Of a stretch of DNA of 64,000 bases, positions 42,241 to 56,610 are shown piece by piece; within the stretch, counting starts at the first letter, position 1; each line of letters begins with the position of its first letter. Under the pieces are notes generated by a model. That model searched no databases. It was not told the DNA's origin and worked only from the letters and a program-made list of their open reading frames with translations. The stretch is from Stigmatella erecta (GTDB taxonomy: Bacteria > Myxococcota > Myxococcia > Myxococcales > Myxococcaceae). The translations under genes and the position numbers were made by a program. Where the stretch lies: NCBI RefSeq assembly GCF_900111745.1, contig NZ_FOIJ01000005.1, positions 372,001 through 436,000 of the forward strand. The letters run 5' to 3'.

Positions 42241-43098
42241 GTGACGACGATGAAGACACTTCTCGGCTGCGCATGCGCTGTTCTGATGACCCTCGCCGCC
42301 TCGCCCGCGCTGGCGCAGCTCGCGCTGCCCCCCGCGAGCCCGTCGTCGAAGGTGACGCAGGTGGTGGGGCTGACCGAGATCTCGGTCGACTATGCGAGCC
42401 CCGCGGTCAAGGGGCGGAAGATCTGGGGCGGCCTGGTGCCCTGGGATCAGGTGTGGCGGACCGGGGCCAACGCAGCCACGAAGATCACCTTCGGCAACGA
42501 CGTGACGTTCGGCGGCAAGCCAGTGCCCGCGGGCACCTACGCGGTTGTCACCATTCCCACGGAGAAGGGCTGGACGGTCGTGCTGAACAAGGAGCTGGGC
42601 CTGTTCGGCGGCGGGAAGAGCTATGACGCCAAGGACGACGTCGTGCGCGTCTCCGCGACGGTCTCCGAGATTCCCGCCCGCGAGCGCCTGACGTTCCTCT
42701 TCTCCAACACCACCGATGACCAGACGTCGCTGGATCTGGAGTGGGAGAAGCTGCGCGTCTCGGTGCCCGTCCAGGTCAAGACGGCCGAGCTGGCCCAGCA
42801 GAACATCAAGGCCGCCGTGGAGAACTCGTGGCGCTCGCTGGCCAACGCGGGCCGCTACGTGGCCGACAGCTCCAAGGACTACCCCACGGCGCTCAAGTAC
42901 CTGGACAACTCGCTGGCCATCCAGTCGCACTGGTACAACAACTGGCTCAAGGCCGACGTCCTGGCCCGCTCGGGCAAGTACGCCGAGGCGCGCAAGTTCG
43001 CGCAGACCTCCTGGGACCTGGGCCAGAAGGACGGCGGGAACTTCTTCTTCAAGGACACGGTCGCCAAGGCGCTCGCGGACTGGAAGGGCAAGAAGTAG
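42241..43098 (+). CDS. Exported DUF2911 protein
   Basis: The 285-aa product has a signal peptide (MKTLLGCACAVLMTLAASPALA). Its DUF2911 domain starts at about residue 35, with VDYASPAVKGRKIWGGLVPW, the VWRTGANAATKITF motif and KPVPAGTYAVVTIP. The C-terminal 100 residues are helical with a TPR-like tail (ALKYLDNSLAIQSHWYNNW, KADVLARSGKYAEARKFA). The function of the family is unknown. GTG 42241 fits the AAGGA spacing better than ATG 42250. Its stop codon directly abuts the bshA stop with no intervening base. Confidence 0.92.
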   Translation: MTTMKTLLGCACAVLMTLAASPALAQLALPPASPSSKVTQVVGLTEISVDYASPAVKGRKIWGGLVPWDQVWRTGANAATKITFGNDVTFGGKPVPAGTYAVVTIPTEKGWTVVLNKELGLFGGGKSYDAKDDVVRVSATVSEIPARERLTFLFSNTTDDQTSLDLEWEKLRVSVPVQVKTAELAQQNIKAAVENSWRSLANAGRYVADSSKDYPTALKYLDNSLAIQSHWYNNWLKADVLARSGKYAEARKFAQTSWDLGQKDGGNFFFKDTVAKALADWKGKK

Positions 43099-44265
43099 TC
43101 AGCGGGGAGCGGCTCCCCCGGCCAGCCGACGGTAGATGGCCTCGTAGCGGTCGATGGCCGGGGCGAGCTGGAAGTGCTTGAGGACGTGCTGGCGGGCGTT
43201 GTGGGAGAAGCGGCCCCAGCGCTCCGGGTCGCGCACGAGCGCGAGGACATGGCCCGCCATGGCCTCCACGTTGCCCATCGGCGCCAGGTAGCCCCGCGCC
43301 CCGTGCTCGACCTGCTCGGGGATGCCGCCGATGTCGCTGGCGACCACCGGGATGCCGCAGCTCAGCGCCTCGAGCGCGGCGAGGCCGAAGCTCTCCTGCT
43401 CACTCGGCAGGAGGAAGACATCGGAGGCGGCGAGCACCTCGGCGAAGCTCTCCTGTTTGCCCAGGAAGGCCACCCGGTCCTCCAGGCCCAGCTCCCGCAC
43501 CCTGCGCTCGGCGGGGGAGCGCTCCGGACCATCCCCAATCATCACCAGCCGGCACGGGTGCTCGCGGTGGACGCGGGTGAAGACGGACACCACGTCGGCG
43601 ATGCGTTTGACGGGCCGGAAGTTCGAGACGTGGATGAGCACCGGCTCGCCGTCTGCCAAGCCGGGAAAGAGCGCGCGCACGTGGGCCCGGTCGCGCCGGG
43701 GCGCATAGCGCTCCGTGTCGACGAAGTTGGGGATGACCTCGATGGGCAAGGAGCCCGAGGGGATGCCGAAGCCCTCCCAGGTGGCGCGCCGCAGGAACAT
43801 CGAGGGCGTGGTGACCACGTCACTGCGCAGGATGGAGAAGCGGGTGATGGGCAGGTAGGTGGGGTCCGTCCCGACGAGCGTGGTGTCGGTGCCATGGAGC
43901 GTCGTGACGATGCGCGGCGCCTGGCTGCCGAGGACTTCGCGGGCCATCCAGGCCGCCGTGGCATGCGGCACGGCATAGTGGACGTGCAGGATGTCCAGGT
44001 GCTCGTAGCTGGCGACCTCGATCATCTTGGAGGCCAGCGCCAGCGGGTATGTCCCCGAGTGGGCGAGCGCCGGGTAGTCGCTCTCGGTGACCTCGTGGAA
44101 GATGACCTTCCGCGTCATGCCGTGGAGGCGGACCGGAAGGTCCCGGGCAATGAAGTGGACGCGGTGGCCGCGGTCGGCCATCGCCAGGCCGATCTCGGTC
44201 GCGACCATGCCGCTGCCTCCAAAGGTGGGAAAGCAGGTGATGGCCAGATTGAGGGGGGCGCTCAT
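43099..44265 (-). CDS. bshA: N-acetyl-alpha-D-glucosaminyl L-malate synthase BshA
   Basis: BshA is a GT4-family retaining glycosyltransferase that joins UDP-GlcNAc to L-malate, the first step of bacillithiol synthesis. The 388-aa protein shows the family start CFPTFGGSGMVATEIG, HVHYAVPHATAAW, TTLHGTDTTLVG, VSNFRPVKRIADV, and the C-terminal donor site SEQESFGLAALEALSCGIPV. It overlaps bshB by 4 nt and is the last gene of bshC-bshB-bshA. The identity is supported both by motifs and by the neighbouring bsh genes. Confidence 0.95.
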   Translation of the reverse strand: MSAPLNLAITCFPTFGGSGMVATEIGLAMADRGHRVHFIARDLPVRLHGMTRKVIFHEVTESDYPALAHSGTYPLALASKMIEVASYEHLDILHVHYAVPHATAAWMAREVLGSQAPRIVTTLHGTDTTLVGTDPTYLPITRFSILRSDVVTTPSMFLRRATWEGFGIPSGSLPIEVIPNFVDTERYAPRRDRAHVRALFPGLADGEPVLIHVSNFRPVKRIADVVSVFTRVHREHPCRLVMIGDGPERSPAERRVRELGLEDRVAFLGKQESFAEVLAASDVFLLPSEQESFGLAALEALSCGIPVVASDIGGIPEQVEHGARGYLAPMGNVEAMAGHVLALVRDPERWGRFSHNARQHVLKHFQLAPAIDRYEAIYRRLAGGAAPR

Positions 44266-45068
44266 CGGGGGGCGGGGAAGAACAGGGGCCGGGCGAAGGA
44301 ATTCCGGCGAAAATGCTCCACCGGATCGACGAGCCCCAGCGTCTCGCGCAGGACGTACGGCTCGCCGTGAGCGACGCCAATCTGGGCCCCGTAGAAGCGG
44401 TCCCGGGCCTCGAGCGAGGTGAGCGACAGCGGCGAGCCCACCAGCGTGGGAGGCCCCTCCGCGCGGGCTTCCACCTGGCTGGCGTAACACCGGACGGCCG
44501 CCATCTTCTGGCCGTGGACCGCCGTCACGTCGGCGACGAAGCTCGGCTCGGCCAGGTGGCGCATGGGGTAGTAGAGCACCTGCCTGGGCGTGAAGGGCGG
44601 GTGGACAGGCGCGGTCTCGAACTTGCGGACCGAGGCGAAGAACAGCGCCCGGGTCACCAGCTCGCTGGTGGCCTCGTGGTCCGGGTGGCGCTCCTGTTGC
44701 CAGGGGACGAGCACGAGCTCGGGGCGCAGGCGGCGCAGCACCTCGACGATTCGCGTGACGGGGGCGGTGCGGGCGCGCTCGGCCTCGGGCGCCTCGAAGC
44801 CTGCCCACGGGTCCACCCACCCATCGGGCAGGCCGAGGTTCTCGCGGACGGTGAGCCCCAGCACGCGGGAGGCCGCCTCGGTCTCGGCGGCGCGGGTCTC
44901 GGGGGTGCCGCGCGAGCTCTTCTCCCCGCGCGTCAGGTCCACGATGCCGGTGCGGTGGCCCAGGCGCGCCATCTGGGCCAGGAGTCCCCCACAGAAGAGC
45001 TCGACGTCGTCCGGGTGAGGCCCGAAGGCGAGGACTTCCAGTCCGTAGGCGGGCTCGGCGGCGCTCAT
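44262..45068 (-). CDS. bshB: Bacillithiol biosynthesis deacetylase BshB (BshB1-like)
   Basis: BshB removes the acetyl group from GlcNAc-malate to give GlcN-malate, using a zinc ion. The 268-aa PIG-L/LmbE-fold protein has the zinc motif [14 protein letters not shown], the [19 protein letters not shown] helix typical of BshB1, and [15 protein letters not shown] with the third metal ligand. It overlaps bshC upstream and bshA downstream by 4 nt each, so the three enzymes are translated as a coupled unit. Confidence 0.94.
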
Positions 45069-46693
45069 GGCTTCAGGTCCTTCAGGCCGCCGGAGAACGG
45101 CACGCACGCGTCGAGGACCTGGCGCGTGAAGGCGCCGCCGCCGAAGCGGCAAGCGTAGTAGGGCAAGCCGTGGATGCGTTCCTGCGGCGCACCGTCCGGG
45201 AACAGATAGGCCTGGAGGCGCTCCACGCGCCCGGAGGTGACCTGATCGCGCTGGGCCAGGGTGCGGCCGTAGCGCGCCACCAGGCGGGAGACGCCTCCGT
45301 GAACCGTCCTGCGGGTGCGTTCGAGGGCCCGGGCGAAGCCCGGCTCGAAGGCGGCCGTGCGCTCACCGAGGCGGGCGAGCTCGGCATCGAACGCGCCCAC
45401 GAGGCGTGCCTGGAGGGCCTCGGGCGGTTCGAAGGCCTCCACGGGATTCCGGGCGGCGAGGCGGGCCAGCAGCGCGTCCCGTGGGGTGGCCGCGTCATCG
45501 GGCGAGAGGCCCAGCGTCTCGAGCAGACGGCGCGCGCGGTCATCAATCACGCGGAACCGGGCGCGCGGGACGATGAGCGGCATGGGCAGCCCGGCGTGCG
45601 CATAGAGGGGGGCGAGCTGCGCGAAGTAGGCGATCTCTCCGGGGCCGCCGACGTAGGCCGCCGTGGGGAGCCAGGTGTCCTGAAGCATCGGACGCAAGAG
45701 GGCCGAGGTGGTGAAGCGGAGCGGCTCACGCTCCAGCCACGAGAGGAGCTCGGCCGTCGTCACGCAGGCGCCCTCCGGGTGGCCCACGAGGCTCCAGGTG
45801 CCCGGAGACGGGGCCGGGTCGAGGCGGTAGCGCGCGCCCTCGGGGCCACCGGGCGAGAAGAAGCCGAGGGGGGAGCCTGGGCGCAGGTGCACCTGCTCGG
45901 AGAAGCCCGCCTCGGCGAGCGCCCGGCCCCGCTCGGCGAGGCCGCTGGCGATGGCCGTGGCGGCCTCGATGGACCGGCGGTGGACCGGTGCGGCGAGGGG
46001 GGCGAGGCGGGGGTCGCGCGGATCGAGGAACAGGAGCCCCTCGTCCGCGAAGAGGGTGGAGAGGACCTCGGCGAAGGCGTCCGCCAGCGTGGCCTCGGGA
46101 CGGTAAGCGCGCTCCAGCAGCGCCAGGTGCTCGTCCGCGTGGGGCAGGCCGCCCAGCTCGGCGCGCAGCGCGGCGAGTGCCTCGGGGATGCCCCCTCCGA
46201 GCTGGCAGTGGGCCACCGGGATGCGCGAGCTGGCCGCGTCGGGTCTCCCGAGGGCCACCCGCAGCGGGTCCGCCGAGGCGCGCGGAACGAGGCAGTGGTC
46301 GATCTCCGGCAGGTCGTGGTCCTCGGTCTGCAACCAGAAGATGGGAACGCAGGGCCGTCCCGTCTCCTCGGCCAGGGCGCGAGCGGTGACGATGGCGGAG
46401 GCGGCCTTGTAGACCGTGAAGAGCGGACCGAGGAACAAGCCCACCTGCTGCCCGGTCACCACGGCCACCGTGCCGGGGCGGGCCAGCAGCGCCAGGTTCC
46501 GCTCCCGGGCGGGGCTCGGCGCGAGGCGTGCCTGGCGGGCCACCAGCGCCGCGTGGAGCGCGGGGGCGACGGTGCGCGAGGCCGCGGCGGCCACGGCCTC
46601 GGCGCGGGCGGACGGGTGCCGGTAGCGGTCCGGGAGAAATTCGAGCGCGCGCGGATCACCGCGCATCCAGGAAGCGGAAAACGAAGAGGCCAC
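45065..46693 (-). CDS. bshC: Putative cysteine-adding enzyme BshC
   Basis: BshC adds cysteine to GlcN-malate, completing bacillithiol. The 542-aa protein shows family motifs [53 protein letters not shown] and [16 protein letters not shown], with a C-terminal coiled coil and [13 protein letters not shown] at the end. The start is GTG 46693 (VASSFSASW); no clear Shine-Dalgarno sequence is seen, and a later Met (MRGDPRAL) is possible. It heads the operon and diverges from the large PIG-L gene over an 86-bp shared upstream region. Confidence 0.93.
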
Positions 46694-46779
46694 GGGCCGG
46701 TGATAGCAAGTCCGGTGTACCGGAGCGACCCCAAGGAGCCTCACACCCGCGCGGCCTCCTTCTGTTAGGGTCCGCGCCG

Positions 46780-49266
46780 ATGCGCACCTGGGTCATCTTT
46801 GGATTGGCAGTGGCCATGAGCCTTGGCGTCTCTTCGGTGGCACTTGGGCAGCCAGCCCGGCAACCCCACGCGGGGGAGATTGCCCTGGGCATCCGGCGCC
46901 TGGGGGTGACGGGCAGCGTGCTCTATGTGGCGGCCCACCCCGACGACGAGAACACCCGGCTGCTGGCCTGGTGGGCGGGCGGGAGGGGCCTGCGCGCGGG
47001 CTACCTCTCGATGACGCGCGGAGACGGGGGACAGAACCTCATCGGGACCGAGCAGGACGAGCTGCTCGGGCTCATCCGCACGAACGAGCTGCTCGCGGCG
47101 CGCCGCGTCGATGGCGCCGAGCAGATGTTCACGCGCGCGCGGGACTTCGGCTACTCGAAGAGCGCGGACGAGACGCTGCGCATCTGGGGCCATGACGAGG
47201 TGCTGGCCGATGTCGTGCTCGCCATCCGCCGCTTCCAGCCGGATGTCATCGTGACGCGCTTCACCCCGAAGCCGCCGAACCACGGGCACCACACCGCCTC
47301 GGCGCTCCTGGCCGCGGAGGCGTTCACCGCCGCGGCGGATCCTTCGCGGTTTCCCGAGCAGCTCGGGGAGCTGAAGCCGTGGAAGGCGGACCGGCTGCTG
47401 AACAACGTCTCGACCTGGAACCTGGCGCCGGGGGCCGACATGTCCGCCTACCTCAAGACCGATGCCGGGGGATACGAGCCGCTCCTGGGGCGCTCCTGGG
47501 GCGAGGTCTCGGCGGAGAGCCGCAGCCAGCACCGGAGCCAGGGCTTCGGGGTGGCCGCCGAGCGCGGGCCCCTGCTGGAGTACTTCGCCCCCCTCGCCGG
47601 GACGCGCCCGAAGGCAGAGCCCTTCGAGGGGCTCGACCTCACGTGGCGGCGGTGGGGCGGCACGGAGAAGGTCATCCAGGCCATCGATGCGGCGTCGGGC
47701 GGGTTCGACCCGCGCGCGCCCCACCTGAGCATCCCGGCGCTCCTGCGCGTCCACGAGGCGCTCTCGGCCCTGCCGGAGGGCCACCCGTGGAAGGCCCTCA
47801 AGCTGCGCGAGACCGAGGCGCTGGTGGCCGCGTGCGCGGGGCTGTTCCTGGAGGCCCGCGCGGCGGAGGCGTCGGCCGTGCCAGGCGGCCAGGTGACGTT
47901 GAACCTGGTGGCCCTGAACCGCTCGCCCGCCGCGCTCCGGCTGGTGAGCGTGACGCTGCCAGGCGGCGAGTCCGTGCAGGCCCGCGCGGAGCTGTCCGGA
48001 GACAAGCCCTTCACGCTCTCCCGGCCGGTGGCCATCCCCGCGGATGCGCGGATCTCGACGCCCTACTGGCTCCGGCAGCCCGTTGCCGGTGGCCTCTATG
48101 CCCTGGAGGCCCAGGACCGCGCGCTCACCGGCCGGCCCGAAGGCGAGCCGGCCCTGGCGGTGACGTTCGTTTACGAAACCGGCGGCAAGCGCTTCCAGGT
48201 GGTCCGCCCGGCCGTCTACGCCTGGACGGATCCGGTGCGCGGTGAGCTCTACCGGGCCTTCGAGATCGCCCCGGCCGTGACGGCGACGCTGGAGCGGGAA
48301 GTCCTCATGTTCCCCAACGGCCTGCCTCAGTCCGTGCAGGTGGTGCTGGCCGCGGGCCAGGCGGATGCGGCGGGCAAGGTCCGGCTCGAGGTGCCGTCCG
48401 GCTGGCGCGTGGAGCCGGCCGAGGTGCCCTTCCAGCTCGCCGCGCGCGGGGATGAGCGCACCGTCCGTTTCCAGCTCACCCCGCCCAAGGGGGCGAGTGA
48501 GCGGGCGCGGCTGCGCGCCGTCGTCGAGGGTGGCGGCCGTTCCGAGTCCTGGCGTGTGCGCACCGTGACGCATGAACACATCCCCCCGCAGGTGGTGCGC
48601 CAGCCCTCCGAGGCGGCCCTGGTGCCGGTGGCCCTCACCCCGAAGGTCCGGCGGGTGGGCTACATCCCCGGGCCGGGAGACCGGGTGGCCGAGAGCCTCG
48701 CGGCCGTCGGGTATGACGTGACGGTGCTTCCCGAGGAGCGCCTGGCGTCCGAGAAGCTCGAGCGGTTCGAGGCCATCCTGGTCGGGGTTCGCGCCTTCAA
48801 CGCCTCCCCCCGGCTCGCCCTCCACCGCGAGCGGTTGCTGCGGTACGTGGAGGGGGGAGGGCGGCTGGTGGTCCAGTACAACACCAACAGCCGGGTGGGG
48901 CCGCTCACCGCCTTCGTGGGGCCGTATCCGCTGGAGATCGGCCGAGAGCGCGTGACGGACGAGACCGCGGCGATGACGCCCGTGAACCCCCAGGAGCTGC
49001 TCCTGCGCTCCCCCAACCGCCTCGGCCCCGCGGACTTCGAGGGCTGGGTCCAGGAGCGTGGGCTCTACTTCGCTTCGACCTGGGATGACCACTACCAGCC
49101 CGTGTTCTCCATGAACGACCCGGGCGAGCCGCCGCTCCGGGGCGGCCTGCTGGTGGCCCGCCATGGCAAGGGCACCTTCATCTACACGGGCATCGCGTTC
49201 TTCCGTCAACTTCCCGCGGGCGTGCCCGGTGCGTACCGGCTGCTCGCGAACCTCCTCGCCCCATGA
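46780..49266 (+). CDS. Large exported PIG-L family deacetylase
   Basis: The 828-aa product has a signal peptide ([23 protein letters not shown]). A PIG-L deacetylase domain follows (zinc motif [27 protein letters not shown], and [15 protein letters not shown]). After about residue 350 come beta-rich regions ([29 protein letters not shown]), and the C-terminus has a flavodoxin/ThuA-like fold ([28 protein letters not shown]). The domain makes it a hydrolase of N-acetyl sugars, possibly GlcNAc conjugates related to bacillithiol. It overlaps the 56-aa gene by 4 nt. Substrate and localisation in the periplasm are inferred. Confidence 0.9.
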
Positions 49267-49433
49267 CCACCCCTTCGACTCCCCCTGAGCCGGGCGGGTC
49301 CCCTCCGCGGCGGCCCGAACTCGACGACGCGCCGCCCCTGCTCGGCTCCTGGCGCAACATCTACCTCTTCGTGCTGGGCGTCCTGGCCCTGCTCATCGCC
49401 CTGTTCTGGGCGCTCACCCGGGCCTACGCGTGA
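49263..49433 (+). CDS. 56-aa single-span membrane peptide
   Basis: This short gene starts at ATG 49263 in an ATGA overlap with the PIG-L stop and ends in GTGA shared with the symporter start. It encodes a Pro-rich cytoplasmic N-terminus ([20 protein letters not shown]) and one membrane helix (YLFVLGVLALLIALFWALTR). The tight overlaps on both sides and normal codon bias make it a real gene. It may be a subunit of, or stabilise, the SSS transporter. No family is recognised. Confidence 0.75.
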   Translation: MTTPSTPPEPGGSPPRRPELDDAPPLLGSWRNIYLFVLGVLALLIALFWALTRAYA

Positions 49434-51157
49434 CACTGCTCGACTGGCTGGTTCTCGTTGGCTCAACGGCGTTCATCGTGGGGTGGGGGCTCTGGCGGTC
49501 GCGCGGCGAGAGCCGCACCACGGAGGGCTTCCTGCGGGGAGGCCAGGATCTGCGCTGGCCCACCATTGGCCTGTCCGTCATGGCCACGCAGGCGAGCGCC
49601 ATCACCTTCCTCTCCGTCCCGGGCCAGGCCTACGAGGACGGGATGCGCTTCGTGCAGTTCTACTTCGGCTTGCCGATCGCGATGGTGATCATCAGCGCGG
49701 TCTTCGTGCCCATCTACTACCGGCTGAACGTCCTCACCGCCTACGAGTACCTGGAGTCGCGCTTCGACCTGAAGACCCGCCTGCTCGGCGCGCTGCTCTT
49801 CCTCATCCAGCGGGGACTGGCCTCCGGCATCACCCTCTACGCGCCGTCCATCATCCTCTCGGCGATCTTCGGCTGGCCGCTGGAGCCCACCATCCTGGTC
49901 ATGGGCGCCCTGGTCATTCTCTACACCGTGACGGGCGGCTCCAAGGCCGTCAGCCAGACGCAGAAGCAGCAGATGGTGGTCATGCTCGGGGGCATGGCGG
50001 TGGCGGCCCTCGTCATCGTGTGGCGGCTGCCCGGGCACGTCTCCTTCTCGCGGGCCGTCGACGTCGCGGGGGCCCTGGGCCGGATGAACGTGGTCAGCTT
50101 CGATTTCGACTTCCAGGACCGCTACAACATCTGGTCGGGCCTTACCGGCGGGCTGTTCCTGTCCCTGTCGTACTTTGGAACGGACCAGTCCCAGGTGGGC
50201 CGCTACCTGACGGGGCGCTCGGTGGCGGAGAGCCGCCTGGGGCTGCTCTTCAACGGCGTCCTGAAGATCCCGATGCAGTTTCTGATCCTCTTCGTCGGGC
50301 TCCTGGTCTTCGTGTTCTATCAATTCACCGCGCCGCCGCTGCTCTTCAACCAGCCCCTGCGCTCCCGGGTCCAGGCGACCGCGCAGGCGGGGGAGTTCGC
50401 CGCCCTGGAAGAGAAATGGCTCCAGGTGCAGGCACAGAAGCGCGCCGAGGCCGACCGGTACGTGGCGGCGCGTGACGCCGGGGACCCTGCCGCGGAGGCG
50501 GGCGCGCGCGAGCGGCTCCAGGCCGCCGCCCGGACGGCCGAGACGATCCGCAAGGAGGCCAAGGCCGTGGTCTCCCGGGCCCTGCCAGGCAGCGAGACGA
50601 AGGACTCGGACTACATCTTCATCTCCTTCGTGAGGGACTGGATGCCCAGCGGGCTCGTGGGGCTGCTCATCACCGTCATCCTGGCGGCGGCCATGAGCTC
50701 GATTGCCAGCGAGCTCAACGCCCTGGGCGCGACGACCACGGTCGACTTCTACCGGAGGCTCCTGCGCCGCGATGCGACCGACCGCCAGGTCCTGGTGGCC
50801 TCCAAGCTGTGTACCGTGCTCTGGGGGTTCGTCGCGGTCGCCTTCGCGAGCTTCGCCTCGCTGCTCGACAACCTCATCCAGGCGGTCAACATCCTCGGCT
50901 CGCTCTTCTACGGGACCGTGCTGGGCTTGTTCCTCGTGGCCTTCTTCCTCCGGCACGTGCGAGGCAATGCGGTCTTCGTCGCCGCACTCATCTCCCAGGG
51001 GATGGTGCTCGGCCTCTTCGTGTTCTCCTCCATTGGTTATCTCTGGTTCAACGTCATTGGTTGCGCGCTGACCGTCGTCCTGGGATTGATTCTCCAGGCC
51101 CTCTTGCCCCAGCCCCCCTCCGGGGCGAGCGGCGCGGCTGCCAGCCCCAGCTCCTAG
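49430..51157 (+). CDS. Sodium:solute symporter (SSS family)
   Basis: The 575-aa protein has about 13 membrane helices and SSS motifs: TTEGFLRGGQDLRWPTIGLS, ATQASAITFLSVPGQAYEDG, YTVTGGSKAVSQTQKQQ, and YFGTDQSQVGRYLTGRS. An additional charged helical insert (residues about 315-385, with LEEKWLQVQAQKRAEADRY) lies in a loop. Family members import sugars, sialic acid or other solutes with Na+. The start is GTG 49430, overlapping the small membrane-peptide gene. Its place beside a PIG-L enzyme suggests uptake of an amino-sugar product, which is an inference. Confidence 0.92.
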   Translation: MTLLDWLVLVGSTAFIVGWGLWRSRGESRTTEGFLRGGQDLRWPTIGLSVMATQASAITFLSVPGQAYEDGMRFVQFYFGLPIAMVIISAVFVPIYYRLNVLTAYEYLESRFDLKTRLLGALLFLIQRGLASGITLYAPSIILSAIFGWPLEPTILVMGALVILYTVTGGSKAVSQTQKQQMVVMLGGMAVAALVIVWRLPGHVSFSRAVDVAGALGRMNVVSFDFDFQDRYNIWSGLTGGLFLSLSYFGTDQSQVGRYLTGRSVAESRLGLLFNGVLKIPMQFLILFVGLLVFVFYQFTAPPLLFNQPLRSRVQATAQAGEFAALEEKWLQVQAQKRAEADRYVAARDAGDPAAEAGARERLQAAARTAETIRKEAKAVVSRALPGSETKDSDYIFISFVRDWMPSGLVGLLITVILAAAMSSIASELNALGATTTVDFYRRLLRRDATDRQVLVASKLCTVLWGFVAVAFASFASLLDNLIQAVNILGSLFYGTVLGLFLVAFFLRHVRGNAVFVAALISQGMVLGLFVFSSIGYLWFNVIGCALTVVLGLILQALLPQPPSGASGAAASPSS

Positions 51158-51271
51158 GAGCACCAAGTTGAGCACACTGCGTCAAGGAACATCCTGTTTC
51201 ACTCACAGGAGACAGTCCGCACCTTGAAGCCGTTTACACCCAGTGGGGAAGCGTCTAGATGACGCGGAAGA

Positions 51272-54202
51272 ATGACTGGGAACACGCGAGACGGATCAAA
51301 GGACAGTATTCAGAACGTGGCTCACCGGCTCATGCGCATCGGGAGCGTGTTGGGGCTTGCCGTCTGGCTCGCGGCCGCGCCAGCGCTGGCGCAGAGGACG
51401 ACGGCGGACATCCGGGTCGGCCTCCGCGAGCTTCGCGGACCGGCCACGGGCATCACCGTGCTCGCGGTGAACACCCAGAGCGGCTTCGCGGCGAAGGGAA
51501 TCGCCCGCTCGGATGGCTCGTTCTTCCTGACCGGCCTGCCGCCCGGCGAGTATGTCATCACCGTCACCCAGCCCGGCGGCAAGGAGGTGTACCGGACGGT
51601 CACCGTCCAGGTGGGCCAGACGGTGGACCTGAACATCAACGTCCAGGAGGAGTCCTCGCTGGATCTCGGCCAGGGCGAGACCGTGCTCGTTCAGGGCAAG
51701 GCCCCCGAGAGCTCCAGCTCCGAGGTCGCCACCAACGTGGGCCGCGAAGAGATCGCCAACCTGCCCCAGAACAACCGCAACTTTCTCAACTTCGCGGCCC
51801 TCGCGCCCGGCGTTCGCGTCTCCAACGATGAGTTCAACAAGAACTTCTCGTCTGGCGCGCTCGAGGCGCGCAGCACCAACGTGTTCGTGGACGGGGTGAG
51901 CCTCAAGAACAACGTCATCGAAGGCGGTCTGGTCGGCCAGGACGCGAGCCGTGGAAACCCCTTCCCGCAGCTCGCGGTCAGCGGGTTCCGCGTGATTACG
52001 CAGAACTACAAGGCCGAGTACGAGCAGGCCAACAGCGCCATCATCTCCGCCATCACCCGCTCGGGCGGCAACGACTTCCATGGCGACCTCTTCCTCACCT
52101 TCCAGAACCAGGCGCTGATCGCCAAGGACTACTTCCTGGCGGAGAGGCCCGAGCAGCTGCGTTCCCAGTTCGGGGCGGCGCTGGGAGGGCCGCTGGTGAA
52201 GGACAAGCTGCACTTCTTCGTGACGTACGAAGGCAACATCCAGGACCGCTCGAACCTGGTGGCGATTGGCAATCCGAACGAGGAGAACCTGAGCCGGTTC
52301 GACGCCTTCCAGGGCAACTTCGGCAGCCCCTTCCGGGAACACCTGGGCTTCGCGAAGCTGACGTGGCGGCCCGCGGACAACCAGACCCTGGATGTCAGCG
52401 CCAGCCTCCGGACCGAGACGGACATCCGCAACTTCGGGGGCCTGATCAGCGTCGAGAGCGCCGAGGACGTGCGCAACAACGTGCTCACCACCTCGGCCCG
52501 GCACCAGCTGCGGCTGGGGGCGCTGACGAACGAAGCCACCTTCCAGTTCCTAAACTCGAAGTTCAACCCGGTCGCCACGCGGCCGGGCGAGGTGGGGCGT
52601 GACTACGAGGGCGTCATCCGGATCGGTGGCCGCGACACCAGCCAGGACGTCCGCCAGCAAGCGTTCACGTTGCGCAACGACGTGACGTTCGCGGACTTCG
52701 ACTGGGCCGGCCAGCACGTGATGAAGGCCGGTGCCAAGCTCTCCTTCCAGCGGTACCAGATCGAGCGCACGCTCTTCGGCAACCCCGTGTTCCGCTTCCG
52801 CGAGGATGAAGGCAACGGCCTGAGCTATGACTTTCCGGCCGAGGCCTCCTATGGCGTTGGCGATCCGAAGGCGGCGTCCAACAACACGCAAGTGGGCCTG
52901 TACGTCCAGGACGACTGGGAGATCGCCAAGCGGCTGACGCTGAACGTGGGCCTCCGGTGGGATGTGGAGACCAACCCCCTGAACAACGGCTATGTGACGC
53001 CCGCGGAGGTCCGCGCGGCGGTGGAAGAGCTCGCGGCCATCGTCGCGCAGCGGAATGGGCCCGGCTTCTTCCCGGTCGAGAACTACCTGACCGACGGCAC
53101 CCAGCGTCCCGTCTTCCTGGGCGCGGTGCAGCCGCGGCTGGGCGCGGCCTTCGACGTGATGGGCAACGGCCGCACGGTCCTCTTCGCGGGCGCGGGGCGC
53201 TACTACGACCGCACCCTGTTCAACACCGGCGTGGATGAGCGGCTGCGGCTTCAGTACCAGGTCCGCACGTTCTACTTCTCGCGGGACGGCGCCCCCCGCT
53301 TCGGGCAACCGACCATCGCCTGGCGGCCCGAGTACCTGAGCCGGCAGGGGCTCGATGCGCTGATCGACAGCGGCGTGGCCCCCGCCCCGGAGATCTTCCT
53401 GCTGGAGAACGACACCCGGCCGCAGTACAGCGATCAGCTCAGCGCGGGGCTCCGGCAGCAGGCCGGGCCGTTCAACACCTCGCTGACGCTCACGCACATC
53501 CGCAGCAAGAACGGCGTGGGCTTCTATCCCGCCAACCGCGAGTCGACGGGCAACCGCGACTACATCCCCACGCCGGGCGGCTTCGGCAATGTCATCATCT
53601 CCGTGGACGACCGGACCTCCACCTACAGCAGCGTGCAGGTCTCGGCGGAGAAGCCTTTCTCGAGCGAGTTCTCGTCAGGGAGCATTCCGTGGGGAGCGTC
53701 CCTGGCCTACACGTTGGGCGTCGCCCGGGAGCGGGGTGCGGCCTACAACTTCGACTACCCGACCGTCAAAGACAGTCCCGTGACCCCCACGTCCACCGAC
53801 GAGCGCCACCGGCTCGTGCTCTCCGGCATCGTGGGGTTGCCGCTGGAGTTCAAGCTGTCCACGCTCATCACCCTGGGAAGCGGCTTGCCCTACACCATCT
53901 ACGACAATTCCAGGGGCACCGGTCCCACCGAGTTCGTGCTCCGCACCAACGGGGGCCGGGCGGACGGCTTCATCAATTTCAGCCAGGTGGATCTCCGGCT
54001 GGCCAAGGACTTCACCATCTCCAAGGGCCGCCGCATCAACGCCTTCGCCGAGTGCTTCAACCTCTTCAACGCCAGGAACTTCGGCGGATACGACGGGTAC
54101 CTCCCCCCGGAGACCGAGCCCGCGAATCCGAAATTCGGGGAGCCGACGAATCTGGTGGGGCCGCCGCGCAGCTTCCAGTTCGGCATGGGCTACAACTTCT
54201 GA
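51272..54202 (+). CDS. TonB-dependent receptor with carboxypeptidase-regulatory-like domain
   Basis: The 976-aa outer-membrane receptor has a signal peptide (RIGSVLGLAVWLAAAPALAQ). A beta-sandwich of the CarboxypepD_reg type follows (residues about 45-120: LRGPATGITVLAVN, GSFFLTGLPPGEYVITV), then a plug (EEIANLPQNNRNFLNFAALA) and a 22-strand barrel ending in FQFGMGYNF. The domain order matches Oar-like and SusC-like receptors. It probably imports a substrate connected with the PIG-L/SSS genes just upstream on the same strand. ATG 51272 follows a GGAAG; ATG 51332 right before the signal peptide is an alternative. Confidence 0.93.
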   Translation: MTGNTRDGSKDSIQNVAHRLMRIGSVLGLAVWLAAAPALAQRTTADIRVGLRELRGPATGITVLAVNTQSGFAAKGIARSDGSFFLTGLPPGEYVITVTQPGGKEVYRTVTVQVGQTVDLNINVQEESSLDLGQGETVLVQGKAPESSSSEVATNVGREEIANLPQNNRNFLNFAALAPGVRVSNDEFNKNFSSGALEARSTNVFVDGVSLKNNVIEGGLVGQDASRGNPFPQLAVSGFRVITQNYKAEYEQANSAIISAITRSGGNDFHGDLFLTFQNQALIAKDYFLAERPEQLRSQFGAALGGPLVKDKLHFFVTYEGNIQDRSNLVAIGNPNEENLSRFDAFQGNFGSPFREHLGFAKLTWRPADNQTLDVSASLRTETDIRNFGGLISVESAEDVRNNVLTTSARHQLRLGALTNEATFQFLNSKFNPVATRPGEVGRDYEGVIRIGGRDTSQDVRQQAFTLRNDVTFADFDWAGQHVMKAGAKLSFQRYQIERTLFGNPVFRFREDEGNGLSYDFPAEASYGVGDPKAASNNTQVGLYVQDDWEIAKRLTLNVGLRWDVETNPLNNGYVTPAEVRAAVEELAAIVAQRNGPGFFPVENYLTDGTQRPVFLGAVQPRLGAAFDVMGNGRTVLFAGAGRYYDRTLFNTGVDERLRLQYQVRTFYFSRDGAPRFGQPTIAWRPEYLSRQGLDALIDSGVAPAPEIFLLENDTRPQYSDQLSAGLRQQAGPFNTSLTLTHIRSKNGVGFYPANRESTGNRDYIPTPGGFGNVIISVDDRTSTYSSVQVSAEKPFSSEFSSGSIPWGASLAYTLGVARERGAAYNFDYPTVKDSPVTPTSTDERHRLVLSGIVGLPLEFKLSTLITLGSGLPYTIYDNSRGTGPTEFVLRTNGGRADGFINFSQVDLRLAKDFTISKGRRINAFAECFNLFNARNFGGYDGYLPPETEPANPKFGEPTNLVGPPRSFQFGMGYNF

Positions 54203-54238: not shown

Positions 54239-54433
54239 CTTCTCTACTCTGTAGTGACGGATGGTTGGATGCTGGCTCCATCTGTGTCGCGAGTATGTCG
54301 CACGCCAGAGCAGAGGGCCGTCACGGACGTAAAGGTGTCCGCGAGCCGCCGTGATTGACGGGCCTGTCATGGTACTCCTGTAGTCTCGGGTGGTGCTCCC
54401 GGCGTGCGGGGGCCCTTGGCCAGGAGGCTCCTC

Positions 54434-55873
54434 ATGCCGCGCTCGACGCTCCTGCTGCTGATCGTGTTTCTCTCAGGGTGCAGCGCCTCCACGAGGGCCG
54501 TTGTCCGCCTAAACACAGGCCAGGGCGAACCTCTCGTCCACACTCCGCGCCGCGACGTGGAGCCAGAGGAGATGAGCGAAGAGGAGTTCAAGAAGGCCGT
54601 CGCGCAACATGCTCCCTCCGTGCCCTCCGTGAAGCGGCCCCTGGAGTACGCCGGGAAGCTATTCGGAGTGCCCGAGCGCAGCGGATGGCTCTGGTACGAG
54701 GGCCGCAGCCAGCGGCTCATGGCCTCGGAACCGGGCAGCCACCGCAACCTGCGCCTGCTACCCGAAGACGAGGAACTGAAGCGCCAATACCTGCAGTGGT
54801 GCGAGCAGACGTGGGGAGGCGGCGACTGCCTGCTCCTGCTGGTGGACAAGCCCTTTCTGGATGGAGACGCCAAGTATGCGTTGGCCATGGCCATTGCCCA
54901 GAGCAAGGTGCTGGGCGCCATGAAGGAAGAGCTCGCCGGGATGGTGAGCCCCCAGGCAGTGATGGCCACGGTTGTCGGTGGGCTGACCATGTACGCCATT
55001 TTGCTCGCGCTGCCCGAGCCGGTGAGTAAGGGCGTGGCGGCGCTGCTGACGCTGGGGGCCATGGCCTACCTGGGCTGGGACACAGTGTGGAAGCTGATTG
55101 ATGGGTGGCTGGTGCTGATGAAGGAAGTGGATAAAGCCACCACCTTCGACAGCATCTACGCCTTCGGAGAGAGGTTCGGGGAAACGATGGGGGAGAAGGC
55201 GGCGCGAGCCTTCGTGATGCTGGCCACGGTGGCGATGGGGAACACAGCGGCAGGCATGGCAACGACGCTGCCGACGCTGCCGGGAGCCGGGCAGGTGGCG
55301 GTGGTGGCTGAGACGCAGATGAACATTCGCTTCACTGCCCCAGCGCTGGCTCAAGTGGACTCGGTGGCCATCACTGCCGAGGGCGTCACCATCGCCCTGG
55401 CCCCCAACGCAGTCGCCATGGCGGCGCGCAACAGCTCAGGCGGCAAGGCGGGCGCGAAGGCTGCGCCGCCCAGTTCCGGTGGCCCGGGGGAATGGGTCAA
55501 GGCGAACGAGGCCATGACCGAACACTCACGCCGCTATCAGGCGCAGGTAACAGGAGCCCCCGGAGGCTACGTCTACCGCGTCAAGCTGGGGGACACGTAT
55601 GTGAAGTTCGACGGCTTCGATGAGGGAATTCTGCTCGAAACCAAGAGCACTGGGTACGCGCAGTGGGTCGATAAGAATCTGAACTTCTTCGGGATTTTTA
55701 AAGGGAGACTCCAGATGCTCGAGCAGGCGACACGTCAGGTAGAAGCCGCCGATGGAACGCCCATCCGGTGGATCGTCGCTGAAGAGAAGCTCGCGGGTGC
55801 ACTCAGGAAAATGTTCAAGGCAGAGCGCCTCGATATTGAGGTCGTTCATGTTCCCTCGATCCCTCTCCCTTAA
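54434..55873 (+). CDS. Lipoprotein toxin with restriction-endonuclease-fold C-terminus (SitA-like)
   Basis: The 479-aa product has a type II signal peptide (PRSTLLLLIVFLSGC, Cys 16) and a Pro/Glu-rich segment. Hydrophobic stretches follow (residues about 172-216 and 260-285). The C-terminal domain (about 350-479) has the PD-(D/E)XK pattern of Tox-REase-5: Asp393 in KFDGFDEG and Glu402/Lys404 in LLETKS, with KGRLQMLEQATRQV and IRWIVAEE after it. An immunity gene follows 14 bp later. A lipidated N-terminus joined to a nuclease fits SitA toxins, which are passed between myxobacterial cells by TraA/B outer-membrane exchange. AGGAGG precedes ATG 54434. Confidence 0.82.
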   Translation: MPRSTLLLLIVFLSGCSASTRAVVRLNTGQGEPLVHTPRRDVEPEEMSEEEFKKAVAQHAPSVPSVKRPLEYAGKLFGVPERSGWLWYEGRSQRLMASEPGSHRNLRLLPEDEELKRQYLQWCEQTWGGGDCLLLLVDKPFLDGDAKYALAMAIAQSKVLGAMKEELAGMVSPQAVMATVVGGLTMYAILLALPEPVSKGVAALLTLGAMAYLGWDTVWKLIDGWLVLMKEVDKATTFDSIYAFGERFGETMGEKAARAFVMLATVAMGNTAAGMATTLPTLPGAGQVAVVAETQMNIRFTAPALAQVDSVAITAEGVTIALAPNAVAMAARNSSGGKAGAKAAPPSSGGPGEWVKANEAMTEHSRRYQAQVTGAPGGYVYRVKLGDTYVKFDGFDEGILLETKSTGYAQWVDKNLNFFGIFKGRLQMLEQATRQVEAADGTPIRWIVAEEKLAGALRKMFKAERLDIEVVHVPSIPLP

Positions 55874-55887
55874 GGAGTAGCCATCCG

Positions 55888-56610
55888 ATGGTAGAAACTT
55901 ATTACGTTGGCTCCTATTGGCTCGCCCGGCATGAATCCGCCGAGGCTTGCGCACGCCGCACGGAGCACTTCTTCCACCGCCTCGGGCACTGCGACCCGGC
56001 GTGGACCCGTTGGTATGAGACGGCAGACTCCTTCGAGGAGGCGCGCAAACTCCACTTCACGCCAAACGCAGCGAGCTTCCAGAAGCTGTTCGCACGGAAG
56101 GAGAATCATTTCGGTGACCGTTTCTCTTACGGGCTGTGGACTGGCGACAACATTCAGGAGACCTCCACCGTTGACGGAAGGTGCGGTTCATCCTCGCTAC
56201 GGCTTCCGTCCTCCTGCGTCCTCAACCCCCATGCTGAAGGCCCCGTCGGTGAGCGAGTGCTGACCGCTCCCGTCATGACCGAGGTGTTGCGCGCCATGGC
56301 CCTGGCCTGGGACCCAGAGTGGGGAGTGGTCACCTCTCACCAATACGAAGAACTGCTTTCAGACAAGGTCATCCCCGCAGGCACCTCGGTGAGTTGGGTG
56401 GTGTACTTCTCACGGCTGCGCGGCACGGTGCCTCCACTGCCTGCCCCCGTGCGCATCGAGCCGGTGGAGGACAAGGGTACCCTCGTCATTCTGACTCCCG
56501 AGCGGTTCACCGCTTCCAACTCGGGGCACGTCACGCTGGCCGCTCGCGTCCACGAGATGCTGAACCGGGCAGGGCTGCTGCGACCGTTGCAGCCCTGGCT
56601 AGCAAGGTGA
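55888..56610 (+). CDS. Imm52-family immunity protein
   Basis: The 240-aa cytoplasmic protein lies 14 bp after the toxin gene with an AAGGAG 10 nt before ATG 55888. It has the pattern of the Imm52 family: MVETYYVGSYWLARHES and CARRTEHFFHRLGHCD at the start, then ETADSFEEARKL and VTSHQYEELLSDKV. Imm52 proteins are known partners of Tox-REase-5 toxins. It should bind the nuclease domain and protect the producer and its kin. The cysteine content and shorter G/C bias than core genes fit an acquired cassette. Confidence 0.82.
   Translation: MVETYYVGSYWLARHESAEACARRTEHFFHRLGHCDPAWTRWYETADSFEEARKLHFTPNAASFQKLFARKENHFGDRFSYGLWTGDNIQETSTVDGRCGSSSLRLPSSCVLNPHAEGPVGERVLTAPVMTEVLRAMALAWDPEWGVVTSHQYEELLSDKVIPAGTSVSWVVYFSRLRGTVPPLPAPVRIEPVEDKGTLVILTPERFTASNSGHVTLAARVHEMLNRAGLLRPLQPWLAR

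Follow-up and report, generated by a model that had tools for sequence, protein, structure and literature searches.

The bacillithiol biosynthetic operon of the myxobacterium Stigmatella erecta lies back to back with genes for an exported hydrolase and a sodium symporter, and we propose that this divergent arm salvages bacillithiol outside the cytoplasm, a reading to which we give a probability of roughly 0.6. The window analyzed is the 64,000-nucleotide stretch at positions 372,001 to 436,000 of contig NZ_FOIJ01000005.1, and coordinates below count from its first letter. The source genome is 9.2 Mb in size and 99.99% complete. The proposal is built on the genes present, their order and linkage, their co-occurrence across genomes, the fold and catalytic residues of the hydrolase, its leader and the neighboring genes. 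The locus is composed of the following features.

42241-43098, plus strand: DUF2911 gene, convergent with bshA (PF11138, 173.4 bits, cut-off 27)
44265-43099, minus strand: bshA, N-acetylglucosamine-malate (GlcNAc-malate) synthase (TIGR03999, 515.4 bits, cut-off 273.7)
45068-44262, minus strand: bshB1, GlcNAc-malate deacetylase (TIGR04001, 276.3 bits, cut-off 182.5)
46693-45065, minus strand: bshC, cysteine-adding enzyme (TIGR03998, 451.4 bits, cut-off 265.8), with a GTG start codon chosen in the analysis
46694-46779, no strand: divergent intergenic region between bshC and the PIG-L gene, 86 bp
46780-49266, plus strand: exported LmbE/PIG-L hydrolase, 828 amino acids (PF02585, 53.9 bits, cut-off 28.2)
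49263-49433, plus strand: 56-amino acid membrane peptide with a single transmembrane segment (TM), overlapping the PIG-L and symporter genes by 4 bp each
49430-51157, plus strand: Na+:solute symporter, SSS (PF00474, 138.3 bits, cut-off 22.8; TIGR00813, 234.3 bits, cut-off 184)
51272-54202, plus strand: Oar-like outer-membrane receptor (PF25183, OMP_b-brl_4, 204.8 bits, cut-off 30; CarboxypepD_reg, 48.5 bits, cut-off 32.3), 114 bp after the symporter gene

An original prediction for this DNA had claimed a complete and overlapping bshC-bshB-bshA operon, and the profile searches bear it out: BshA, BshB and BshC all exceed their NCBIfam equivalog cut-offs, which marks a bacillithiol operon, and the genes overlap by 4 bp at both the bshC/bshB1 and bshB1/bshA junctions. 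The genes and the 86-bp divergent gap lie where they had been placed. The DUF2911 gene, a member of the conserved set, had been overlooked. Among 98 related genomes, sampled from genus to order level with the window's own genome included, PIG-L (E<=1e-20) is found in 35 and DUF2911 (E<=1e-10) in exactly those 35. The bshC gene is present in 34 of the 35 and in none of the other 63; in the exception, G007, bshA stands directly before PIG-L and the contig begins there. Close relatives have the order DUF2911> <bshA <bshB1 <bshC PIG-L> TM> SSS>, and other relatives the order DUF2911>bshC>bshA>PIG-L>SSS. The association, comprising both co-occurrence and a linkage kept through rearrangement, is more than chance, and a functional tie is argued for because the linkage survives the change of gene order.

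The same genes are found together in a second phylum. Among 149 Acidobacteriota genomes (PIG-L threshold E<=1e-80), PIG-L is encoded by 64, bshC by 93 and both by 62 (Fisher p 7e-16, without correction for phylogeny), so that bshC is found in 62/64 PIG-L genomes against 31/85 of the others, usually on a contig different from that of PIG-L. Where PIG-L scores below E 1e-200, bshC is present in 21 of 23 genomes (p 0.001). Two acidobacterial loci, L181 and L182, have the order DUF2911-bshC-bshB1-bshA-PIG-L-TM-SSS, all in one direction, and a more distantly related PIG-L comes after bshB1-bshA at L255 and L262. Five others (L183, L186, L247, L251 and L253) carry a unidirectional ROK-receptor-SSS-PIG-L-argininosuccinate-lyase cluster, and the symporter gene is adjacent in 15/16 of the higher-scoring acidobacterial loci. 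In the bshC and PIG-L trees (56 rows; the PIG-L tree is a quick version), both L181/L182 sequences group with myxobacterial sequences, apart from Bacteroidota. A metagenome-assembled genome record titled Rickettsiales (L137) groups with Bacteroidota in both trees and is probably mislabelled. The original prediction was to be given up if the PIG-L/SSS pair never accompanied bsh genes; the bshC counts among PIG-L-encoding relatives and the clusters shared in two phyla run the other way. Its suggestion that the arm serves external glucosamine (GlcN)- or GlcNAc-malate-type conjugates is well supported by this gene context.

A wider view was obtained by a GTDB contig scan, from which we took the best 80 of at least 481 confirmed PIG-L relatives, with neighborhoods from several phyla extending up to 10 kb per side, some contigs being shorter. 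The full-length relatives among these best 80 are from Bacteroidota, Ignavibacteria, Acidobacteria, Eisenbacteria and Myxococcota. By tblastn, the symporter was found in 57 of the 80 loci, DUF2911 in 40 and bshC in four; the bshC profile found three, two of them myxobacterial and one from a Tenacibaculum metagenome-assembled genome, and the fourth locus, added by tblastn, is myxobacterial. Anywhere in the genome, bshC was detected in 49 of the 50 genomes searched out of the 80. Neighbor clustering also placed a Gfo/Idh/MocA-like family, named by eye, in 12 of the 80 loci. It had been suggested from general knowledge that a bsh/PIG-L/symporter association exists in Bacteroidetes. The PIG-L and symporter part of that statement stands, since a hydrolase-SSS-DUF2911 set recurs in Bacteroidota, but the bsh part does not, bsh genes being almost never adjacent. 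We rejected these neighborhoods as support for bsh linkage because bshC is nearly never at these loci. In a set of 247 Bacteroidota genomes (PIG-L threshold E<=1e-50), bshC is present in 242 and PIG-L in 87, 73 of the latter below E 1e-200; co-occurrence in this phylum is uninformative as evidence because bshC is near universal.

The PF02585 match and the metal ligands H53, D56 and H171 place the exported protein in the LmbE/PIG-L superfamily. It is composed of a hydrophobic N-terminal leader, a catalytic part at approximately residues 42-288, a beta-rich middle and a conserved C-terminal part at 621-828, and its closest named relative among the matches listed is from a Myxococcus (78%). Residues 42-288 of the AlphaFold model (mean predicted local distance difference test score, pLDDT, 78) superpose on MshB with Z 21.1, a root-mean-square deviation of 3.2 and 230 aligned residues, and on Bacillus subtilis BshB with Z 18.2, a deviation of 2.8 and 193-195 aligned residues. 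H53, D55, D56, H168 and H171 align with the catalytic residues of MshB, whose roles are in part described in PMC4101496. These five and R100 are invariant in 109/109 PIG-L sequences, as are C-terminal residues such as D634, R671 and R724. The highest-scoring NCBIfam model is the mycothiol conjugate amidase Mca (TIGR03446), at 35.1 bits against a cut-off of 277.15, and the protein is also below the cut-offs of BshB1 (TIGR04001, 19.4 vs 182.5 bits) and BshB2 (TIGR04000, 18.0 vs 195.25 bits). A search of PDB sequences with the single protein gave no match, and one with the PIG-L alignment as query gave weak MshB matches. The C-terminal part has no Pfam match and is modelled with low confidence. 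We propose that this enzyme would act as a bacillithiol amide hydrolase.

Both PF00474 and TIGR00813 assign the transporter to the SSS family, in which it retains equivalents of Ser60 and Thr63 of the sialic acid transporter SiaT (5nv9), with a Gln nearby (SiaT Gln82); its residues R128, S56 and Q76 are invariant in 84/84 sequences. According to PMC5931594, Ser60 and Thr63 of SiaT bind the substrate and Arg135 forms a salt bridge with its carboxylate. The membrane peptide was found by tblastn between PIG-L and SSS in 5/17 loci and in 7/80 loci, and also in L181, L182, L184 and L187-L195. The receptor has both CarboxypepD_reg and OMP_b-brl_4 domains above cut-off, as is the case for Oar-like TonB-dependent receptors. 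It had been counted as part of the second arm and is indeed present at the locus, but of the myxobacterial loci read, only the window and that of G003, its nearest relative, have it next to the unit, and we rejected it as a core component. The L186 receptor has the same domain pair and stands beside SSS-PIG-L. Since a receptor recurs in the five acidobacterial clusters, we keep it as an optional part of the unit.

Plasmid-borne homologs suggest a different use of the same hydrolase family. PIG-L homologs (E<=1e-12) are encoded in 26 plasmid records, and in 19 of them the match spans 80% or more of the query. Five of the 26 are partial matches from actinobacteria; the other 21 (L226-L246) come from alphaproteobacteria, include 9 from Aminobacter and do not amount to 21 independent cases. 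These alphaproteobacteria are not known to carry bsh genes. All 21 alphaproteobacterial neighborhoods encode an argininosuccinate lyase-type enzyme, a ROK regulator and the parts of a sugar ABC importer, namely a binding protein, two sugar permeases and a UgpC-type ATPase; a PfkB kinase is present in 16/21 and an EamA-type transporter in 16/21. Two of the 21 have a second ROK-family gene (glucokinase-like, below cut-off) together with a GlcN-6-phosphate deaminase. A sugar kinase or kinase-like gene is thus present in 18/21, and the stretches of the other three records, all from Aminobacter, lack a kinase gene. Two of the 21 homologs had their N-termini inspected, and neither has a leader; these two share with the window enzyme (~30% identity) the motifs HPDDE, TRGxGGQN, RTxE, DFGxSK, GHH and ERGLYFA. 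One neighboring gene labelled "cysteine dioxygenase family" in its record matched neither Pfam nor NCBIfam models at 1e-5, and the label was not used. Members of the argininosuccinate lyase superfamily act on succinyl or malyl compounds and set fumarate free. Bacillithiol consists of cysteine, glucosamine and malate, parts to which such a lyase would correspond when combined with a hydrolase of N-acyl-glucosamine and a GlcN kinase or deaminase; the set possibly serves to eat bacillithiol or GlcN-malate.

We present the following hypothetical scheme. Bacillithiol, its disulfide or its S-conjugates, derived from the cell or its neighbors, would be present outside the cytoplasm. There the exported LmbE enzyme, acting as a one-metal amidohydrolase, would cut the amide between cysteine and glucosamine to give cysteine(-SR) and GlcN-malate; by alignment, H53, D56 and H171 would be the metal ligands, D55 the base and R100 a sugar contact. 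The Na+ symporter, with its invariant Arg in the TM3 region, is the proposed GlcN-malate importer and would carry this anionic product inward, and BshC of the divergent operon would re-attach cysteine. In relatives with an argininosuccinate lyase-type enzyme, GlcN-malate would be converted to GlcN and fumarate for catabolism. Substrate, direction of transport and recycling are what we infer here, and a malyl amino sugar is the favored substrate because of the five acidobacterial ROK-receptor-SSS-PIG-L-lyase clusters and the alphaproteobacterial sets, 21/21. The steps of the scheme cover neither DUF2911, the membrane peptide nor the C-terminal part of the hydrolase. In a broader form, for which we would put the odds at about even, the long LmbE hydrolases would constitute the first dedicated bacillithiol turnover system: producers would recycle the thiol outside the cytoplasm with the symporter and an optional receptor, and alphaproteobacteria would scavenge the thiol or its GlcN-malate core to yield cysteine, an amino-sugar phosphate and fumarate, via an argininosuccinate lyase-type enzyme acting on the malyl glycoside.

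Several observations weigh against the salvage proposal. The co-occurrence in the 98 genomes is given as raw counts without correction for phylogeny, and the genes, being linked in Myxococcota, are inherited there as a group. Two PIG-L-encoding Acidobacteriota, G411 and G460, gave no bshC match, and the absence of PIG-L from all five Bacteroidota genomes without bshC (0/5) is not significant (p 0.11). Fourteen of 20 lower-scoring acidobacterial loci have no bsh, SSS or lyase neighbors, some contigs being short, and for this reason some PIG-L homologs may do something else; among the 14 there is one receptor-like match and one ROK match. The sister group of L181/L182 is L051/L052/L057 in the bshC tree (87/90) and the window's group in the PIG-L tree (99), and because of this disagreement the sharing of bsh and PIG-L as one unit between phyla can be called no more than likely. 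The symporter resembles SiaT in having a basic TM3 residue, and an anionic sugar is plausible as its substrate, but R128 aligns one helical turn before SiaT Arg135. The lyases exceed the ArgH cut-off and could be ordinary ArgH, and the substrate of the arm may be other amino-sugar conjugates.

An alternative is that the long PIG-L takes part in biosynthesis by deacetylating GlcNAc-malate and is the sole BshB in some lineages, acting either before its export or outside the membrane, with the symporter returning GlcN-malate. The distribution of BshB1 speaks for such a role: it is above cut-off in just 20 of the 34 bshC-encoding relatives and not in the other 14, and bshB1 is missing from between bshC and bshA in G002, G047 and G053 (loci L195, L194 and L193), genomes that carry other PIG-L genes. 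G007, G019, G068 and G082 have no PIG-L domain besides the exported one at E<=1e-6, but these are draft genomes, 92-98% complete. A second PIG-L in G043, G024 and G011 is lipoprotein-like as judged by eye, and that of G031 is a homolog; G024 and G031 have additional PIG-L genes as well. The leaders are short in several of the BshB1-poor genomes, and PMC4101496 describes overlapping substrates for the LmbE enzymes Mca and MshB. Yet the window, L181 and L182 carry BshB1 and PIG-L together, and a leader is absent from BshA and BshC. Where BshB1 is missing, its step would fall either to the exported enzyme or to some other one; as the general function of the arm we regard this alternative as unlikely.

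We think it improbable, slightly more so than BshB substitution, that the arm is an unrelated amino-sugar scavenging unit that merely neighbors the bsh operon. PIG-L and SSS are broad families, and in Bacteroidota they are found away from bsh genes, as such a unit would be; against this, PIG-L tracks with the bsh genes in relatives of S. erecta and the clusters are shared in two phyla. The least probable of the alternatives, by a narrow margin, is a detoxification arm, in which the hydrolase acts mainly on exported bacillithiol S-conjugates in a mercapturic route like that of Mca/Bca, transferred to the outside of the cytoplasm, and the symporter recovers GlcN-malate. The gene evidence for it is the same as for salvage, and Mca is the top-scoring model, though far below cut-off. 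Within the cluster we noticed no gene for a bacillithiol transferase or for an exporter of conjugates, no genome-wide search having been made, and the alphaproteobacterial gene sets look catabolic.

Other features of the locus and genome were also noted. The DUF2911 protein has a leader, a beta domain and a TPR-like C-terminus; its model (mean pLDDT 89.3) gave no PDB match at E<=0.001, the best rows being mostly TPR proteins, and there was no sequence match. This exported protein accompanies the PIG-L/SSS unit in the window and in 66 loci of other genomes from several phyla. The 13 bases TGTTAGGGTCCGC at 46763-46775, shortly before the PIG-L start, do not vary among the 7 genomes aligned; a sigma-70 consensus scan of the divergent intergenic region found no promoter-like site, and it is possible that TGTTAGGGTCCGC is the extended -10 element of a near-leaderless PIG-L mRNA. 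Adjoining the receptor gene, a lipoprotein-like open reading frame with a Tox-REase-5 domain (PF15648) lies at 54404-55873, followed at 55888-56610 by one that could be its immunity protein. The source genome has a glutathione synthetase ATP-grasp match (PF02955, E 1.2e-65) at G000:C16:46597-47118, as do 28 of the 34 bshC-encoding genomes below E 1e-50, and two thiols may coexist in these genomes.

Bacillithiol pathways are already described for Myxococcota and Acidobacteriota (PMC12719100), the thiol is widely distributed, Proteobacteria included, and it is proposed, with its derivatives, as the most widespread of the small thiols in bacteria (PMC6282198). Recycling of S-conjugates by Mca/Bca is likewise known (PMC4101496). 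In the open-licence PMC literature we found no description of a salvage arm or of enzymes for the fate of bacillithiol outside the cytoplasm. The bsh half of the locus is therefore already known for Myxococcota, and no account of the salvage arm turned up in the literature searched. The PIG-L enzyme resembles Mca/Bca in its LmbE catalytic core, in the Cys-GlcN amide that it is proposed to cut and in the recycling of the sugar half; however, Mca/Bca are short, whereas PIG-L has a leader, is 828 amino acids long, includes a C-terminal part and a middle rich in beta structure, and is coupled to a symporter. It shares fold and catalytic residues with MshB/BshB, to which it adds the leader and extra domains.

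In the gamma-glutamyltranspeptidase cycle, glutathione is broken down outside the cytoplasm and one piece is taken back up. The salvage proposal has the same logic, in that the cell's own thiol would be cut outside and a piece re-imported, although the enzyme is non-homologous and the thiol is different. If the proposal is true, the hydrolase and importer would be the bacillithiol counterpart of the glutathione cycle, and a function would be provided for a large family of exported deacetylases. Several apparent bacillithiol producers without BshB1 remain a puzzle. A true proposal would also make the turnover of thiols testable in Myxococcota, Acidobacteriota and Bacteroidota, and other bacteria would be predicted to use bacillithiol as a source of carbon, nitrogen and sulfur.

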